From contig BRLC01000008.1 of assembly GCA_024343425.1 (NCBI GenBank), positions 54,392 to 118,391 on the forward strand: a stretch of DNA of 64,000 bases, read 5' to 3'. Of this stretch, positions 44,710-64,000 are shown piece after piece. The DNA comes from Rhizobiaceae bacterium MnEN-MB40S. Lineage in GTDB: Bacteria; Pseudomonadota; Alphaproteobacteria; Rhizobiales; Rhizobiaceae. The translations under genes and the position numbers were made by a program. The notes below the pieces were generated by a model that saw only the letters and a list, made by a program, of their open reading frames with translations, was not told the DNA's origin and made no database searches. How positions within the stretch are numbered: the stretch's first letter is position 1; every line of letters begins with the position of its first letter.

Positions 44710-44990
44710 AGTGGTTCTCAAGGAAGTAAAAAGGCAACCGGCGCTGTGGTGCTGGAACGTCGGCAACGATCTCTCAAGCTTGACGATCTATTGTTTCCCT
44801 ACTCTGATCCCCTGACGCAATTCCGACCCGTCTGCCTATCTCATGCACCAGAACATAACAGGAACAATACCTTGCAATTTCCAGCTGATTATGCTATGAA
44901 GCGCGCCCGAAAATCACCTTAAGGCGGCGCAGTGGTTTCCAGCTTTCAAAGCCTGTCTCGACAAGCCGTCGACCTCAATCAGGACACGCC

Positions 44991-45830
44991 GTGACGGCGG
45001 ATCACATCGTTCAGCGCAACCGGGCGAACGCCGAAAAGAGCACTGGCCCCAGAACACCGGCCGGCAAGGCCGCCGCTTCGGCCAATGCGCGCCGGCACGG
45101 CGCGACCGCCCGGCCCGAGCGGTCGCGCGTCGGCCTGTGGCTCCGTATCATCCTCGGCCGCCCCAATCTGACGCTTGCCGATTTCATCCCCTGCGACGAG
45201 CGCAGCTTCCGCGCGCTGGCGCTCGCCGAAGCCGAGGCCCGGCTCGAGACCTGCGAACGCGCGCTGCGCGATTTCGAGGCCGGCGCAAACATGGCCGCGC
45301 CCTATCCGGACCACTGCAACGATGCGGAATTGATGACGCGCGCGCTTGCCGGCGAAACCCTCACGCCGTCTGAAGACCGCAGGGTGATGCGCCTGTTCAC
45401 CGCGCTCCTCGACCCCCGCGCCGCGCGCCGGATGGAAGATCCCGACCGCCTGCTTCGACGCTACCGCAACGAGGCCCGCGCCCGGCGGAAGAAAGCCTTC
45501 GCCGCCTGGATCAAATGCCCTGCTGAAGCCGAAACCCCGCCGCCGGACACGCCCGACGAACCGGAGAATCCCGGTTTCCCGAAACAAGGCCAGATTGCCA
45601 AAACGCCGAAAAAAGCAGATTCCCGAAACGAAGCCAGATCTGCCGAATTTCGTACATTATATAATGGTTACAATAGCTTGAACCAAAGTCTCGATTCAAT
45701 TCCACACGGGAACGCGCACCCAGTCAGCGCGTTACCACAGGAGAAACGCTTTTCCGGGGCTTCGCCCGGCCAGCATTGCTCGGTCTGTTGTCATGATTTT
45801 CGTTTGCACATAGAAACAACACCCAAATGA
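44991..45830 (+). CDS. NAxKSTGPRT-motif protein of unknown function (paralogue A)
   Basis: A 279-residue protein starting at GTG with AGGA upstream. Residues 13-26 carry the motif NAEKSTGPRTPAGK, followed by SANARRHGA, which recurs in a large uncharacterised bacterial family. Residues ~50-170 are helical and Arg/Glu-rich (RLLRRYRNEARARRKKAFAAW). The C-terminal ~75 residues look like translated DNA repeats (FPKQGQIAK), then non-conserved sequence running up to an ATGA overlap with the SLC13 permease. It is paralogous to the gene at 61655-62128. Function unknown; DNA or RNA association is only a guess from its basic character. Confidence 0.65.
   Translation: MTADHIVQRNRANAEKSTGPRTPAGKAAASANARRHGATARPERSRVGLWLRIILGRPNLTLADFIPCDERSFRALALAEAEARLETCERALRDFEAGANMAAPYPDHCNDAELMTRALAGETLTPSEDRRVMRLFTALLDPRAARRMEDPDRLLRRYRNEARARRKKAFAAWIKCPAEAETPPPDTPDEPENPGFPKQGQIAKTPKKADSRNEARSAEFRTLYNGYNSLNQSLDSIPHGNAHPVSALPQEKRFSGASPGQHCSVCCHDFRLHIETTPK
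45578..45644. repeat. Two degenerate copies of a short repeat in gene A
   Basis: CCCGAAACAAGGCCAGATTGCC (45578-45599) and a near copy at 45622-45644 lie 44 bases apart inside the coding tail. The core CGAAACAAAGCCA-like unit is also found, tandemly, in the tail of the paralogue near 61565-61612. Depending on frame, it encodes ETKPN, KQSQI or RNKAK. Confidence 0.6.
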
Positions 45831-57695: not shown

Positions 57696-58793
57696 ATGAG
57701 CATTAGATTAGTCCTTCCTGTTCTCGCCGCAGCCGGATTTTTGTCCACCACGGCTTTGGCCGACGTCAAAGTCGTCGCGTCGATCAAGCCGGTCCATTCG
57801 CTGGTAGCCTCCATCATGGAAGGCGCGGGAACGCCCGAAATTCTGGTCGACGGCGCCGCCTCCCCGCACACATACAGCCTGAAACCCTCCCAGGCGCGCA
57901 GCCTGGCCGACGCCGACGTCGTCTTCTGGGTAGGCCCGTCGCTCGAACCGTTCCTTGAAAAGCCGCTCGAAACCATCGCTGAAGGATCGACGTCGATTGC
58001 GCTCGACGACGCGCCCGGCCTTACGCTCCTGGACGTGCGCGAGGGAGGCGCTTTCGAAAAGCATGACCACGATCATGAAGGCCACCATGATCACGATGAT
58101 CATGCGCACGATGACCATGACGACCACGATGACCATGCTCATGAGGACCATGACGACCATGATCACGAGGAGCATGAAGACGCGGCGCATGAGGATGAAG
58201 ACCACGACGGGCATGACCACGAGGAGCACGCCCACGCGGATCATGATGAACACGACGATCATGACGGCCATCATGACCACGGATTCAATCCGCATATCTG
58301 GCTTGATCCCGCAAATGCCGCAGCCATGGCGGAGGCAATCGCCGCGACCCTGCAGAAGGCCGATCCGGACAACGCTGTGCTCTATGCGGAGAATCTGGCC
58401 AATGTGAAAACCCGACTGGCGGCCTTGACCGAGGGCGTCGCGCCGATTGTGGAGCCGGTGAAAGAAAAACCCTTCATCGTCTTTCATGACGCCTATCAGT
58501 ATTTCGAGAACCGCTTCGGACTTGCCGCCGCAGGCAGCATCACCATCAGCCCTGAAGTCTCTCCGGGCGCCGCCCGCATTTCCGAAATCCGCGAGAAGGT
58601 CGAAGATCTCAAGGCGGTTTGCGTGTTTTCCGAGCCTCAGTTCGAATCGTCCCTCGTAGGCGCGATCATTGAGGGAACGGATGCAAAGGCGGCGGTTCTG
58701 GATCCGCTTGGCGCGGAACTCGCCAACGGTCCGGACCTCTATTTCTCACTGATTGGAAACCTGGCCGACTCCATGGCTGATTGCCTCGGCTGA
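57696..58793 (+). CDS. znuA: Zinc ABC transporter substrate-binding protein ZnuA
   Basis: A 365-residue periplasmic zinc-binding protein with a signal peptide (about 1-22). Zinc ligands: His in IKPVHSLVASIM, HIWLDPANA, and FHDAYQYFENRFGL. A very long His/Asp-rich loop (about residues 122-195, dominated by HDHD and DDHDDH) lies between the first two, far richer than in E. coli ZnuA. GGAG precedes the ATG. It is divergent from znuCB-zur and likely Zur-repressed. Confidence 0.95.
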   Translation: MSIRLVLPVLAAAGFLSTTALADVKVVASIKPVHSLVASIMEGAGTPEILVDGAASPHTYSLKPSQARSLADADVVFWVGPSLEPFLEKPLETIAEGSTSIALDDAPGLTLLDVREGGAFEKHDHDHEGHHDHDDHAHDDHDDHDDHAHEDHDDHDHEEHEDAAHEDEDHDGHDHEEHAHADHDEHDDHDGHHDHGFNPHIWLDPANAAAMAEAIAATLQKADPDNAVLYAENLANVKTRLAALTEGVAPIVEPVKEKPFIVFHDAYQYFENRFGLAAAGSITISPEVSPGAARISEIREKVEDLKAVCVFSEPQFESSLVGAIIEGTDAKAAVLDPLGAELANGPDLYFSLIGNLADSMADCLG

Positions 58794-58901: not shown

Positions 58902-61385
58902 ATGTTTCAGCGCTGCCTTGTCGGCAACCGATCTCGATGGCTGAACGCGCAATGGCTGCGCGCCGCCTTCCTCGTTCTGGCGATCTGCCTTGCGTCAACA
59001 CATGTCCTTGCTCAGACGACGTCTGATCCGGATACGCAGGACGCCGCTCCGGCCACACAGCAGCCGGCTGAACTTGATCCGGTTTATGCGACCTGGGACG
59101 CCACGGCCCAAAAGGCGGAAGAGGTTCTGCAGGAAGGCGACGCAGACATCCAGACGCTGGAGCAGCTGCGCGAAACGCTCGCCAAACAGCGCGACGCCGC
59201 CTTCGAGAGAACACAGGTCGGAAGCGTCAACGTGCGCGCCCTCCAGGCGCAACTGGACGCGCTCGGACCCGCCCCCGCTGAAGGCGAAGAGGAGACGGCC
59301 GAAGTCGCCGCAGAACGCTCGAGACTGCGTGAGGCGATCGCGGCGGCGAACCGGCCGATCCTCGCCGCCCAGCAATCCTTCACCCGGGCGGAATTGCTCA
59401 TTCGCGAGATCGATTCGCAAATCCGCGCCCAGCAGACCCGTCAGCTTCTGACGCTCTACCCCTCGCCGCTTCTCGTTCAGAACTGGGCGCCCGCCTTCGA
59501 GGAGCTTGGCGAGCATTTTTCCCGAATCGGCGCGCAGTTCGGCGATGTCATGGATGATCCGGACTATGCGCGAGGCATGCGGGACAGTCTGCCGCTGATC
59601 CTGTTTCTCGGGCTGCTGGCGCTGTTGCTCCTGACATTGTCCGAACGGCTGGTCGCGCGACGTCTGGAACGGATCGCCGGCAGGGTCAGCGGCCGGCGGC
59701 GCAGGGCTCTCATCGTCCTCGCCAATCTCTCCCGGCTTGTTTTGCCGCTCGGCGCAACGCTCCTGTTCGTGGCGGTTTTGGGGGTTCTCGGGATCGAACT
59801 GGATTCGGCGAGCAACCTTCCCGCCCTCGTGTTCATCATCGGCGTCTTCCTGATCATCGCGCACTGGATCGGCCACACGCTGTTTGCGCCAACCAGCCCT
59901 GATCTTCGCATTCTCAGTCTCGACGATGGTCAGGCATGGCAGGGACTGCGCATGGCCCAGGGGCTTGGCGTAGTCCTGTGCATCGATTTCGTCCTTAAGC
60001 ATTTGGAAAACGAGTTCGGCTTTACGCCGCCCACGAAGTCCGTCCTGTCGACGCCGATCGTGATCGTCGGAAGCCTGCTTCTGTGGCGTTTTGCGAGCCT
60101 GTTGCGTATCGGCGGCGAAGAAAAGGCGCAAGCCGAGACCGACGACGAGTCCGAGACGCGACTGAGTTCCGGCTTCCTCGGCTTCGTGGCGCGGCTGGTT
60201 CAAGTGTCCGCGGTGCTTTCGGTCATTTGCGTGTTGATCGGCTATGTCGACCTTGCCCGCTTCGCCATGGAGCCCGTAATCGAAACGCTCGGCCTGCTGG
60301 GCTTCGGCCTCATTGTCTATACGCTGCTATTCAACCTGATCGAGGATCTGATCGGCCGGCAGGAGGAAGAGGAAGACCAGCTTTCGCTTATACCGATCGG
60401 CCTGATCATCCTGATTTCGGCGGGTCTTCTGCCACTGCTGGCGCTCGTCTGGGGCGCGCGGCCGACCGACATCGCAGAGGCCTGGCGCTATCTGACAGTC
60501 GGTGCCCAGATCGGCGACACGCGCATCTCGATCAACGTAATACTGACCCTGCTCGTCGTCTTCAGCATCGGCGTGCTCATCACGCGCTGGCTCCAGCGCG
60601 TTCTTCGCGTCTCGGTGCTGCCGCGCGCCAATATGGACCAGGGCGCGCGCACCGCGCTTGTCACCGTCGTCGGTTACGCCGGCTTGACGATCGCGGCGCT
60701 GATTGCCGTCTCGATGGCGGGCATCAATCTGACGAGCCTCGCCTTCATCGCCGGCGCGCTTTCGCTTGGCATCGGCTTCGGCCTGCAGACCATCGTCGGC
60801 AACTTCGTCTCCGGCATCATCCTGTTGGCCGAACGGCCGATCAAGGAGGGCGACTGGATCGAGGTCGGCGGCAATATGGGGCTTGTGAAGAAGATCTCCG
60901 TCCGCTCGACCCGCATCGAGACCTTCGACCGGCACGACGTCATCATCCCCAACCAGGACCTGATCGCCGGCACGGTCAAGAACATGACCCATTCAAGCCG
61001 CATCGGCCGTCTGGTGGTGCCGGTGGGCGTCGCCTATGGCAGCGATGTGGAGAAGGTTCGCGACGTGCTGATGGCTCAGGCGAACGCCAACGAATATGCG
61101 CTGAGCGTCCCCGAACCGCAGGTGCTCTTCATGGGGCTTGGCGACAGTTCGCTCGACTTCGAGATACGCTGCTTCCTGCGCGAGATCTTCACGATCCCCC
61201 ACGCCCAGTCCCAGCTTCTGATCGATGTCTACAAGGCGCTGGGCCAAGCCGGCATCGAGATCCCCTTCCCGCAACGCGATATCCATCTAAGGGATATCGA
61301 CCGTCTTGTGGAAGCGATGGAAAAGCGGCCTGAGAGAGCGCCGGGGTTATCGGCTTCCGAAGCGCCGAAGCCGGATAACGACTGA
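58902..61385 (+). CDS. DUF3772 domain mechanosensitive channel (MscS family)
   Basis: An 827-residue inner-membrane channel: signal peptide (AFLVLAICLASTHVLA), periplasmic DUF3772 coiled-coil domain (about 50-190), about ten helices, then the MscS core. The pore helix and beta domain read LTSLAFIAGALSLGIGFGLQ, NFVSGIILLAERPIKEGDWIE and RIETFDRHDVIIPNQDLI. Such channels release solutes on hypo-osmotic shock. The start ATG was kept at 58902. It appears monocistronic. The final codons contain a strong hairpin (about 61346-61380). Confidence 0.93.
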   Translation: MFQRCLVGNRSRWLNAQWLRAAFLVLAICLASTHVLAQTTSDPDTQDAAPATQQPAELDPVYATWDATAQKAEEVLQEGDADIQTLEQLRETLAKQRDAAFERTQVGSVNVRALQAQLDALGPAPAEGEEETAEVAAERSRLREAIAAANRPILAAQQSFTRAELLIREIDSQIRAQQTRQLLTLYPSPLLVQNWAPAFEELGEHFSRIGAQFGDVMDDPDYARGMRDSLPLILFLGLLALLLLTLSERLVARRLERIAGRVSGRRRRALIVLANLSRLVLPLGATLLFVAVLGVLGIELDSASNLPALVFIIGVFLIIAHWIGHTLFAPTSPDLRILSLDDGQAWQGLRMAQGLGVVLCIDFVLKHLENEFGFTPPTKSVLSTPIVIVGSLLLWRFASLLRIGGEEKAQAETDDESETRLSSGFLGFVARLVQVSAVLSVICVLIGYVDLARFAMEPVIETLGLLGFGLIVYTLLFNLIEDLIGRQEEEEDQLSLIPIGLIILISAGLLPLLALVWGARPTDIAEAWRYLTVGAQIGDTRISINVILTLLVVFSIGVLITRWLQRVLRVSVLPRANMDQGARTALVTVVGYAGLTIAALIAVSMAGINLTSLAFIAGALSLGIGFGLQTIVGNFVSGIILLAERPIKEGDWIEVGGNMGLVKKISVRSTRIETFDRHDVIIPNQDLIAGTVKNMTHSSRIGRLVVPVGVAYGSDVEKVRDVLMAQANANEYALSVPEPQVLFMGLGDSSLDFEIRCFLREIFTIPHAQSQLLIDVYKALGQAGIEIPFPQRDIHLRDIDRLVEAMEKRPERAPGLSASEAPKPDND

Positions 61386-61560
61386 ACAGTTTTCCTGAAT
61401 TTCTATCCGACGGCGCTTTCGACACCAGTCCAAGCGGGCTTTTCTTAGTCGGGTTTAAGCGGAACCGGATTTTTGATCTCGGGAAGCAACCTGGATTCCG
61501 GTAGTTTCTGCAACAAATATCTCTAATAAGCCTATGTTTTCATTATCCAATAGCAGAGAA
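61386..61560. other. Intergenic region between the channel gene and the accessory module
   Basis: 175 bases whose base composition drops in GC from left to right, marking entry into the accessory segment. No gene or clear terminator was recognised. Confidence 0.4.
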
Positions 61561-61773
61561 TTAGGAAATTTGGCTTTGTTTCGACATTCCAGCGAAATTT
61601 GGCTTTGTTTCGCCAAAGTCGGAATTTTGGAGTTCACACCAGCGTCGAAACAGTTTACGCGCCCGCGATTCCGCCTGGCGTCTGTAACGGGCGGCCGGTC
61701 CGACTTCCTTCTTCCTTATCATCTCCAATGCTCTCTCGGCATCTTCCTGCAACTCCGGCTCTGTCAGGGGGGG
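61561..61773 (-). pseudogene. Displaced C-terminal reading frame of paralogue B
   Basis: In a different frame from the N-terminal part, this segment encodes a protein-like stretch (TEPELQEDAERALEMIRKKE, then RYRRQAESRARKLFRRWCE). It aligns with RYRNEARARRKKAFAAW of paralogue A. It then runs into repeat-encoded FGETKPNF and SKQSQIS and stops at 61561-61563. It joins the upstream frame only if one base of the 7-G run at 61767-61773 is gained or lost. Confidence 0.6.
61565..61612. repeat. Exact 19-base tandem repeat in the tail of paralogue B
   Basis: GAAATTTGGCTTTGTTTCG occurs at 61565-61583 and 61594-61612 (29-base period). The reverse complement, CGAAACAAAGCCAAATTTC, matches the degenerate units in paralogue A. 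In the three minus-strand frames it reads ETKPN, RNKAKF and KQSQI. Confidence 0.8.
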
Positions 61774-62128
61774 CTGTATTCCCATAACCCAACGTTGATT
61801 TTCCATTTTCCACCCATTCCGAAATCTGCATGAGTTTTTTCGTGACAGCGGCCTCATTTTCACGCGTCCGCTCTACCTGGGCTCGGGCTACCGCATATAG
61901 CATTGCTGCACGTTGTCGGGCGCCAAAGTCCTTCGGATCCGGTTCCGCGTGCGGATCATCCATGATGATGCGAAACCACTTCAGAACCAGTTCATGTGAC
62001 GGCGGGGCATTCAGCATGTGCTTGGCTGCATTTCCCGAAACGCGTTTTTTGCCGGCCGCTGACTTGGGCCCGGTGCTCTTTCTGGCGTTGCGTCTGTTGG
62101 CTTCGATTTTCTTGCGCGATACCTTCAT
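61655..62128 (-). CDS. NAxKSTGPKS-motif protein of unknown function (paralogue B), frameshifted
   Basis: A 157-codon frame whose N-terminal ~125 residues are genuine. NARKSTGPKSAAGK lies at 14-27, then SGNAAKHML, WFRIIMDDPHAEPDPKDFGA and YAVARAQVERTRENEA, all alignable with the gene at 44991-45830. After residue ~120 the sequence turns into Gly/Thr/Arg-rich shadow, while the homologous C-terminus continues in another frame past a 7-base G run (61767-61773). The ATG shares one base with the stop of the upstream 582-residue gene (TGATG), so translation is coupled. Function unknown. Confidence 0.6.
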   Translation of the reverse strand: MKVSRKKIEANRRNARKSTGPKSAAGKKRVSGNAAKHMLNAPPSHELVLKWFRIIMDDPHAEPDPKDFGARQRAAMLYAVARAQVERTRENEAAVTKKLMQISEWVENGKSTLGYGNTAPPDRAGVAGRCRESIGDDKEEGSRTGRPLQTPGGIAGA

Positions 62129-63876
62129 CAGCCATCCATCCCATCGGTATGTGGCGTCCCCCAACTTTCAAAATCCTTGCGAAGGCTTGTTATCCGCGAG
62201 TGCCGGTCGGTCACTGCTTCCTCCATTTCCTCGATCAGTGGAGCTGCATTGGCTGTTGCGTGGGCGATAATATCAGCTTTATTTAATCCACCTTTCTCCA
62301 GATCAAGGCGCACCATATCCATCGCGAATTGTGACTTTTTCTTTCCCTGCAATGCAAGAGCCATGAGCCGATCCAATGGTATCGCTTTTCGAGCGTTGCT
62401 ACCGTGAGCACCCTGCGAAGTGAAAACACTGACTGCGGACTTCCTGAACTCGACATCCTGAACCTGCCGAATGCGGGTCTGCAGCCGCCGTTTATCCCAT
62501 TCAAGCCACATCATGTCATCGACGAAAATGACACCTGTCGGCGTTACAGGATTCCATTCCTCCATCATTGCCTTCCGCAAGCTTTCATAGACCGACGGAT
62601 CTTCCTCCGGAAACATGACCGGCGTTGGAAGCAACTCCAGCATTTTGTTCCAGTAAAACCATGGAGGCGAAAGGCGCTTCGATTCGCCAGGACAAAGTTC
62701 GAGGTCCTTCAGGCATAGCCTTCGTCTTAATTCAATTCCGGCAATCTGGGATTCGTAAATCAGGACATTCGATGCAGCGCGGTTCATCGCTTCGACCATC
62801 AAATCGTCCGTTGTCAGTTCGAATTTCTCGAACTCCTCAACGAGTTTATCGTGGCCTTCGAAATCACTGCTGCTTAGCTTGCCGGCTTTGATACGGCTTT
62901 CAAAACTGGGCGTGATGTCGCTATATAGATTTCCTCCGGTCTGGAAAGCGCGCGCCTTTGCGATTTTGAGTTCGTGCAGAACAAGTGAATCGCGTTCACG
63001 CCGATAGCGCCTTTTCGACAATTCCATGCTCAAAATATCATGGACCAACACCTGCCTGCTCGAGGAGTCCGAACCATGTTCTTCGTTTAGAAGCGCCCGC
63101 AGCCTTTCGTAGGTTTCAAGATTTTCCTCGGGCAGAATGTCCGGCGGCGGAAGCAGGCTCTCGGCCCCGGGCTTCCGATCCCCTGGTTGTTCGCTTTTCC
63201 CTTGCCAGGAGCCCTGTGAAGGACCAGCTTCGCTGGAGGTCTCAAGATCTGGCTTTTCGCTGCTGGACCATCCCCCTTCTGAGTCAGAGCTTTCGCCAGA
63301 CACATCGACATCCCTGTCTCCGGCGCCTTCGGTCGGGTTAACCGGCACAGGTGTCTCCGTTTGGTCTGGCGAGCCCGTCGTCCGGCCAGATGTGTTTGGC
63401 TGCTTCACCGGACCTGTCTTCCAGCCGCCATCTGCTTCAACCGTTTCCGACATGGCTTTTCGATTGACCTCTTCGGCAGCATTGCCGGACGACGAAACCG
63501 ACTCAGTATTTGGAATAGAATCGAATGCTGACGAAGGATGAAACAGATCAGAGTCATTGGACGCCTCTGGACCTGGTTGCCCACTGATAGTCCATTCCCC
63601 TTCCCCACCGGAACTGGCTTTGCTTGCGTCGACTTCCTTGCCTGTGGCGTTTTGTAAAAGGCCAACCGTCGGAGAGGGCTCTATCTGCTGTTCAGAGTTG
63701 GTATTCCACCCGTTCCCACTAATCGTGCTTTCAGAATTAACGGTGACGCTATCCTCTGCCTTTACAGAGTTTTGACTGCCTGAGCCGTCATTAATACCTA
63801 TATTGAAATTATCATCGGAAGTATCGGTTGCCTGTGACGAGCGCATTGTTTCCAGTGCACTAGGTGACCGACTCAT
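62128..63876 (-). CDS. Uncharacterised protein with W-centred low-complexity repeats and a duplicated module
   Basis: Up to 582 residues. Residues 1-245 are disordered, rich in Ser, Gly, Glu and Pro, with five glycine-flanked tryptophans (W57, W95, W152, W203, W224) in imperfect repeats such as GGWKTG and GGWSSS. Residues ~248-310 and ~422-485 are two copies of one helical module: PEE-N/D-x3-YE-x-LR, then VHD/VDD, x6-E, x2-KRR. Between them, ASNVLIYESQIAGIELRRRL resembles the conserved helix that follows this module in related proteins. The ATG at 63876 overlaps the transposase end; ATG 63846 is an alternative. GC content appears lower than in neighbouring regions. No known function. Confidence 0.65.
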   Translation of the reverse strand: MSRSPSALETMRSSQATDTSDDNFNIGINDGSGSQNSVKAEDSVTVNSESTISGNGWNTNSEQQIEPSPTVGLLQNATGKEVDASKASSGGEGEWTISGQPGPEASNDSDLFHPSSAFDSIPNTESVSSSGNAAEEVNRKAMSETVEADGGWKTGPVKQPNTSGRTTGSPDQTETPVPVNPTEGAGDRDVDVSGESSDSEGGWSSSEKPDLETSSEAGPSQGSWQGKSEQPGDRKPGAESLLPPPDILPEENLETYERLRALLNEEHGSDSSSRQVLVHDILSMELSKRRYRRERDSLVLHELKIAKARAFQTGGNLYSDITPSFESRIKAGKLSSSDFEGHDKLVEEFEKFELTTDDLMVEAMNRAASNVLIYESQIAGIELRRRLCLKDLELCPGESKRLSPPWFYWNKMLELLPTPVMFPEEDPSVYESLRKAMMEEWNPVTPTGVIFVDDMMWLEWDKRRLQTRIRQVQDVEFRKSAVSVFTSQGAHGSNARKAIPLDRLMALALQGKKKSQFAMDMVRLDLEKGGLNKADIIAHATANAAPLIEEMEEAVTDRHSRITSLRKDFESWGTPHTDGMDG

Positions 63877-64000
63877 AAGTTCTCAACCAGATGCGAATTG
63901 AAGCGAGTTGGACTGACGCAAGAAAATTATCGTCCCGCTTGTCGTATCGTGTGGCAACGGCCCTGAAGTGTTTGAGTTTGTTGAAGAACCGCTCGACGGC
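63860..64000 (-). mobile_element. 3' end of an IS5-type transposase (partial)
   Basis: The last 46 codons of a DDE transposase, continuing beyond the right window edge. The frame reads AVERFFNKLKHFRAVATRYD, then KRDDNFLASVQLASIRIWLR, the classic C-terminal motif of IS5-family transposases (ERFFNKLK with the final E of the DDE triad, TRYDK). The stop is at 63860-63862. The right end of the insertion sequence must lie close to the start of the 582-residue gene, but its inverted repeat cannot be defined without the other end. Confidence 0.85.

Follow-up and report, generated by a model that had tools for sequence, protein, structure and literature searches.

CRISPR arrays consist of a leader followed by near-identical direct repeats and changing spacers. 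In the TIGR-Tas systems, arrays of short conserved repeats and short variable spacers occur with an associated Nop-domain protein, and dual-repeat or stem-loop arrays beside the gene are cut to 36-nt RNAs (PMC12045711). REPIN-RAYT systems combine a protein gene with a cognate short repeat beside it and many dispersed copies of that repeat (PMC3116915). A different kind of short element, the GAAC-N7-GAAC operator, characterises the alphaproteobacterial LexA regulon, the Caulobacter SOS box being given as GTTCN7GTTC in PMC9578287 and PMC4211646. The gene pair described here has points in common with all of these, and also with one-chain NAxKSTGP proteins of Acidobacteria and others, for which no name was found in the libraries searched.

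The pair lies in the window, a stretch of 64,000 nucleotides whose last base is the end of its contig (Table 1). A preliminary description had placed there a 582-residue ORF (gene1-like) and a downstream NARKSTGPKS ORF (gene2), in a segment of lower GC and beside a transposase. Both ORFs are real and have one base in common within TGATG, the GC content is 0.517-0.545 in 61001-64000 vs about 0.60 for most of the window, and the transposase neighbour matches the C terminus of Pfam DDE_Tnp_1_2 at E 0.0034, its 18.2 bits falling short of the curated cut-off of 29.2. An intact working module was not supported. The 582-aa ORF has its start codon and the codons next to it inside the transposase end, in a different frame, so that its native 5' end and promoter appear to be lost; the C-terminal part of gene2 is found in another frame, whose C-terminal stretch reads into the 22-nt repeats. 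This copy is thus truncated on its 5' side, with gene2 broken in frame, and gene2 relatives with a single open frame exist. The window pair is a worn copy of an uncharacterised bacterial protein pair. The frame break, the 22-nt direct repeats and a second NAxKSTGP gene in the window had been missed in the preliminary description.

Table 1. Features of the gene pair and of the gene2 paralogue in the window.
Feature	Coordinates	Strand	Remarks
582-aa ORF	62128..63876	(-)	low-complexity N-terminal part and gene1-like helical module(s)
gene2 first frame, NARKSTGPKS, 157 aa	61655..62128	(-)	ATG at 62128; prob 98.5, P 2e-15 vs gene2 profile
Other-frame ORF	61561..61863	(-)	last 44 residues match gene2 C-terminal part; prob 81, P 1e-5
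Repeat unit 1 at gene2 3' end, GAAACAAAGCCAAATTTC core	61594..61615	(-)	22-nt direct repeat
Repeat unit 2, 29 nt beyond unit 1	61565..61586	(-)	22-nt direct repeat
DDE transposase C-terminal end, running off contig end	63860..64000	(-)	Pfam match, 46 residues
gene2 paralogue, 279 aa, NAEKSTGPRTPAGK	44991..45830	(+)	one open frame reading into repeat units
LexA box GAACATAACAGGAAC upstream of gene2 paralogue	44851..44865	(+)	-
Repeat unit in 3' part of paralogue, one base off 9-mer core	45578..45594	(+)	core at 45581
Second repeat unit of paralogue, 44 nt further	45622..45638	(+)	-

The 582-aa protein had been called a W-repeat protein with a duplicated module. By eye, five Trp residues lie in Gly-rich spots (NGW, GEW, GGW, GGW, GSW) within its first 225 residues. 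The gene1 profile matches the ORF with an overall E of 1.5e-9, the match covering roughly 273-302, 335-395, 404-480 and 509-572 (counted from stop to stop, two above protein numbering). Duplication of the module is weakly supported, 404-480 alone being significant by itself (i-E 5e-6, vs 230, 0.061 and 37 for 273-302, 335-395 and 509-572), and a BLASTP self-comparison of the protein reported no off-diagonal match. The same genome has a second two-gene locus (C13, L034), in which a 220-aa gene1 overlaps gene2 in a similar way, and two more, stand-alone copies of gene2, one of them the paralogue of Table 1. Partial tandem gene2 copies adjoin a full-length one at L096 (G001 C8:275265-275676). Elsewhere in the window, His/Asp-rich tandem repeats occupy 58066-58246, in an ORF resembling a metal-binding periplasmic protein.

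The proposal that the pair is a split form of a larger family, with its two parts adjacent or fused in other genomes, was borne out beyond this strain. According to the gene1 profile, gene1 immediately precedes gene2, in the same orientation, in 25 of the 82 loci scanned (the window pair and C13 included), L135 being a further weak case, while gene1 and the motif are on one chain in 12 loci, with gene1 starting 84-114 nt after the motif start. Judged by title, ten of the fused loci belong to Acidobacteria or Planctomycetes and two to Alphaproteobacteria; their E values run from 7e-7 to 0.013, so several of the 12 are weak. Profile-profile comparisons with the fused family support both halves (gene1, prob 95.9, P 5e-9; gene2, prob 99.1, P 4e-19). 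The N-terminal motif NAxKSTGPxTxxGK...NAxxHG is common to gene2, the fused proteins and the NARKSTGPKS protein of the window, and the helical GEDP module is fused or adjacent to it, more weakly in the window copy (residues 387-462 of the 582-aa protein vs gene1, prob 87, P 4e-6). Since there is an operon in Alphaproteobacteria and both parts are on one chain in Acidobacteria and others, the term split form holds. Homologues of gene1 and gene2 are widespread, the named ones mostly in Rhodobacteraceae and other Alphaproteobacteria; the protein was detected in 3 of 61 genomes, the same three in which the repeat units described below abound. A plasmid search with a neighbouring gene as query rendered no match. 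At three Bradyrhizobium loci (L123, L127, L140) the strand opposite the motif gene carries a gene1-like ORF at a distance of about 3 kb.

No model of Pfam, NCBIfam, PHROGs or PADLOC matches the family proteins above cut-off, and for gene1 (P0003) and gene2 (P0004) of the family no Pfam family, the Y1 (HUH) transposase domain included, appeared at E<=1. The best weak matches, DUF6417 (L133, E 0.008) and HrpB7 (L124, E 0.017) in Pfam/NCBIfam, were below the curated cut-off and were discarded, as were those in PHROGs (best E 0.021) and PADLOC (best E 0.041). Predicted models of both proteins are all-helical, with the N-terminal motif of gene2 at low confidence (pLDDT 52-67). Foldseek, which the preliminary description had recommended, gave neither model a PDB match at E<=1e-3, nor gene1 a match in BFVD; VIA-align matches of gene2 were set aside as common helical arrangements, and no convincing known fold was found for either model. 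A literature text search did not find STGPRT, STGPRTPEGK or NAQKSTGPRT, and element core strings led, among the matches listed, to largely unrelated biomedical work by title and abstract. No library model or paper describing this system was found in the searches made.

A short nucleotide element accompanies the motif gene at its 3' end. Its extended consensus is T..C.AAACRAASCCA, and the 9-mer core AACRAASCC was searched around the best 80 of 143 loci from a scan of GTDB representatives. In these 80 loci the 9-mer reaches 3.2 per kb at +500 to +800 nt from the motif start, vs 0.01-0.02 per kb far from the gene, with 68 forward and 4 inverted occurrences in that bin. Among the 63 loci outside the genus with enough DNA, 53 have the element between 350 and 1100 nt downstream of the motif start, 42 of them in forward and 11 only in inverted orientation, and ten have it in neither, the background being 12 forward and 6 inverted among 638 windows. 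Counted per genome, it is present in 46 of 54 (alphaproteobacterial 21/26, other 25/28), and the titles of the loci include at least Pseudomonadota, Acidobacteriota and Chloroflexota. Flanking positions not used in the search are conserved as well (A at -1, 91%; A at +9, 96%; C at -3, 85%; T at -6, 74%), and the units at 61565-61615 of the window carry the same element. It is located within the ORF or after the stop codon and in all three reading frames, which indicates that selection acts on nucleotides and not on a peptide; a peptide-level reading of the repeats (ETKP, NEPK, KQSQ) was therefore ruled out. Elsewhere in genomes of other phyla, 12 of the 40 element matches examined (9 of the 14 in Acidobacterium 336R) have the motif <=2 kb upstream, vs 9/120 control windows. 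Of these 12, L269 is probably a chance case, and copies without a nearby motif may be chance too.

Dispersal of the repeat is a feature of the own genus. The window-type unit was found at 60 places of the genome (G000) at <=2 mismatches, vs none for the reversed control, and the extended unit has 133, 173 and 251 copies in the three protein-bearing genomes, vs 0-1 per genome in 198 genomes of other relatives (14 with one match, control columns alike). In a class-wide sample many units were present in G000 alone; a 15-mer had 1-3 matches in 6/21 other protein-positive genomes vs 39/363 negatives, and its co-occurrence with the protein across the class was rejected as weak outside the genus. The units form arrays of 2-8, and the 204 intervals between them cluster at 19-20, 33-36, 43-46, 55-57 and 65-67 nt, smaller groups being present at 37-40 and 122-126 nt. 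The intervals of 30-70 nt show phasing with a period of 10.4 nt (R 0.637, n=174, vs at most 0.323 in 300 nulls), the 19-20 nt (13/204) and 37-40 nt (19/204) classes falling outside the phasing; with one median per array the periodicity is weaker (best R 0.40 at 9.35, 54 values), about 2% of the nulls being as high. Arrays of sister species are located at matching places, where repeats are kept and spacers and unit numbers have often changed, some pairs having identical spacers. The ORF upstream of the array, assigned by length, is on the same strand in 31 cases, on the opposite strand in 19 and absent in six, without strong bias.

Other details were noted around the arrays. Between the ends of same-strand upstream ORFs (G000-G002) and unit 1 the median distance is 141 nt, which looks as though arrays began just behind stop codons. 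Palindromic stretches such as TGCCGGACTTGATCCGGCATCC were seen by eye inside arrays L014, L017, L020, L023 and L024, with intervals of about 122-126 nt. An AT-rich motif near AATAAAAACAATAnCTTA, presumably resembling an IHF site, is present 3' of many arrays in either orientation (e.g. L021, L022, L025, L031).

Most arrays have a common leader, composed of GAAC-N7-GAAC and then a TGTGCTATA-like -10. In 36 of the 56 arrays (18/26, 12/22 and 6/8 in the three genomes), vs 1/560 control windows, the exact LexA box is found 60-160 nt upstream of unit 1, and 20 arrays lack it; with one mismatch allowed, the figures are 43/56 and 17/560. In 980 kb of G000 the box heads 9 of 10 arrays, with 59 boxes in total. 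All ten gene2 operons of the genus that were checked have it upstream; the operator has a fixed promoter position, except at the 582-aa/NARKST copy of the window, where it is absent. The lexA gene of this genome has GAACACAAATGGAAC 5' of its ATG, the same type of operator as in the published regulon. In 20 chosen orthologous pairs the eight fixed LexA bases are 88.5% identical and the N7 65.9%, and identity is 84.1% in units, 59.9% in spacers and 74.2% in flanks. Sequence conservation thus indicates that the LexA boxes on the operon and arrays are under selection, box and units being kept while spacers drift. Outside the genus the exact box was found in 3/21 two-gene loci vs a background of 12/478, and allowing one mismatch brought no gain (3/21 vs 78/478), so SOS control may be a local addition and the LexA link is mainly a genus-level one.

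The reading that we tentatively prefer, at somewhat below even chances, is that the family binds the element as DNA, that the window holds a decayed copy of its operon, and that the arrays of the genus, mostly LexA-headed, are under SOS control. The element at the gene end, together with the SOS-headed arrays, suggests that the proteins may bind the motif within a damage-switched system. Binding to DNA is proposed because of the independence of reading frame, the inverted elements in 11 loci, the helical phasing and the lack of an RNA fold signal; a role during damage, because the LexA boxes on operon and arrays appear to be under selection. The NAxKSTGP protein, with a basic N-terminus and no known domain, would recognise the element on one face of the DNA helix, with gene1 as its putative helical partner. 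DNA damage would lift LexA, so that operon and arrays are switched on together, and clustered sites could then concentrate the protein at numerous points of the chromosome, with autoregulation or nucleation as a possible role of the site at the end of the gene itself. The strand bias of 68 to 4 is not predicted by DNA binding alone and counts against this reading. It counts in favour of an RNA system, in which SOS-induced array transcripts are bound or cut into small RNAs with variable, guide- or sponge-like spacers; such a system would also account for the LexA-box, promoter-like leader of the arrays, for their near-identical repeats and often changed spacers, and for the fact that 55 of the 56 arrays lack an opposite-strand unit <=300 nt away, one having it. 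We nevertheless regard an RNA system as improbable, since no RNA fold signal was found in 46 leaders (mean z -0.13) or in array bodies (-0.04), the element is inverted in 11/63 distant loci, the intervals are phased at about 10 nt, and no Nop, Cas or nuclease model of Pfam, NCBIfam, PHROGs or PADLOC matches the family's own proteins. Nor did 61 of the 91 G000 spacers (the remainder lie inside the searched DNA) have a clear origin in 980 kb of the own genome, their longest match averaging 12.3 vs 11.6 for one shuffle each, with one match of 17 nt.

Copy spreading has rather more in its favour, although we consider it unlikely. On this view the mobilisation of a REPIN/RAYT-like element would depend on gene2, either alone or together with gene1; its cassette would extend from LexA box to repeat, the gene-free arrays, with the same kind of leader, being non-autonomous derivatives that keep both ends. 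In 16 pairs of non-orthologous stand-alone gene2 copies of the genus (orthology assigned by our reading), similarity begins <=4 nt from the start of the LexA box in 14 and ends at the end of a repeat unit in 13, the outside being different. Copies in Acidobacterium 336R, where contigs are long enough, are likewise alike over roughly 0.9 kb that includes gene and element, starting about 670-770 nt before the latter and extending 116-232 nt beyond it, and then differ. However, edges of local alignments can also mark the limits of selected sequence, and the common cassette edges could reflect mobility or common selection. Pfam, NCBIfam, PHROGs and PADLOC gave no transposase domain, and inspection by eye revealed neither terminal inverted repeats nor target duplications. 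Among 31 array loci from two sister species, 21 match the G000 DNA examined and all 21 have at least one unit there, with no empty site; as this DNA is biased to array loci (4/21 in 980 kb of long runs, partly chosen round arrays), empty sites are poorly tested by it. Least probable, in our opinion, is that these are relics, the element being a transcript-end or mRNA-stability signal of drifting genes and the arrays fossil tandem duplications. Some copies are indeed broken, that of the window among them, and spacers can be conserved in arrays that lack an exact box (L220/L032, L238/L011), but LexA bases and units are kept amid drifting surroundings, and the element is kept across phyla, both inside and outside the ORF. 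As an observation of its own, in six compared copies of Acidobacterium 336R (within L251-L263) the second element is followed by differing short hairpin-like stretches and then by GATCTTTGA.

A broader claim is conceivable, though we hold it to be doubtful: that the NAxKSTGP proteins form an unnamed class of great age whose members recognise an element, that in this genus they run a damage-induced system of repeat-spacer arrays, and that this system is none of CRISPR, TIGR, REPIN or integron. Such a class would carry its own target at the gene end, and the arrays would have constant units, renewable spacers and a LexA-driven leader. In any case, four libraries gave no match above cut-off for a family that, across phyla, has retained one short nucleotide element at the end of its gene, so that this protein, whose function is unknown, has a candidate ligand that can be tested directly. 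Moreover, with the arrays, mostly under LexA boxes, the SOS response would gain a repeat-array component not described before.

As for the known systems, a cognate repeat beside the gene and dispersed in the genome is found here as in REPIN-RAYT, with dispersal in the own genus only. On the other hand, the family proteins lack a Y1 transposase match, and instead of palindromic REP sequences, inverted doublets and hairpins there are non-palindromic units in direct arrays without fold signal, a LexA-box leader on the operon and most arrays, an element at the gene 3' end in either orientation, and a gene that can be multicopy. With respect to TIGR-Tas, there is no match to Nop (checked in Pfam and NCBIfam), RuvC or HNH, and single-repeat units, not dual repeats, are dispersed in dozens of small arrays. 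The arrays share with CRISPR a leader, near-identical direct repeats and changing spacers, but spacers are short and of several length classes, the arrays are dozens and small, and the family's own proteins, the only ones searched with PADLOC, have no Cas match. In contrast to the alphaproteobacterial LexA regulon as published, the operator here heads gene-free repeat arrays and an uncharacterised operon. With the fused NAxKSTGP proteins the motif, the helical GED module and the 3'-end element are common; the window copy differs in its possibly duplicated module, and both parts are on one chain there and in two genes in Alphaproteobacteria.
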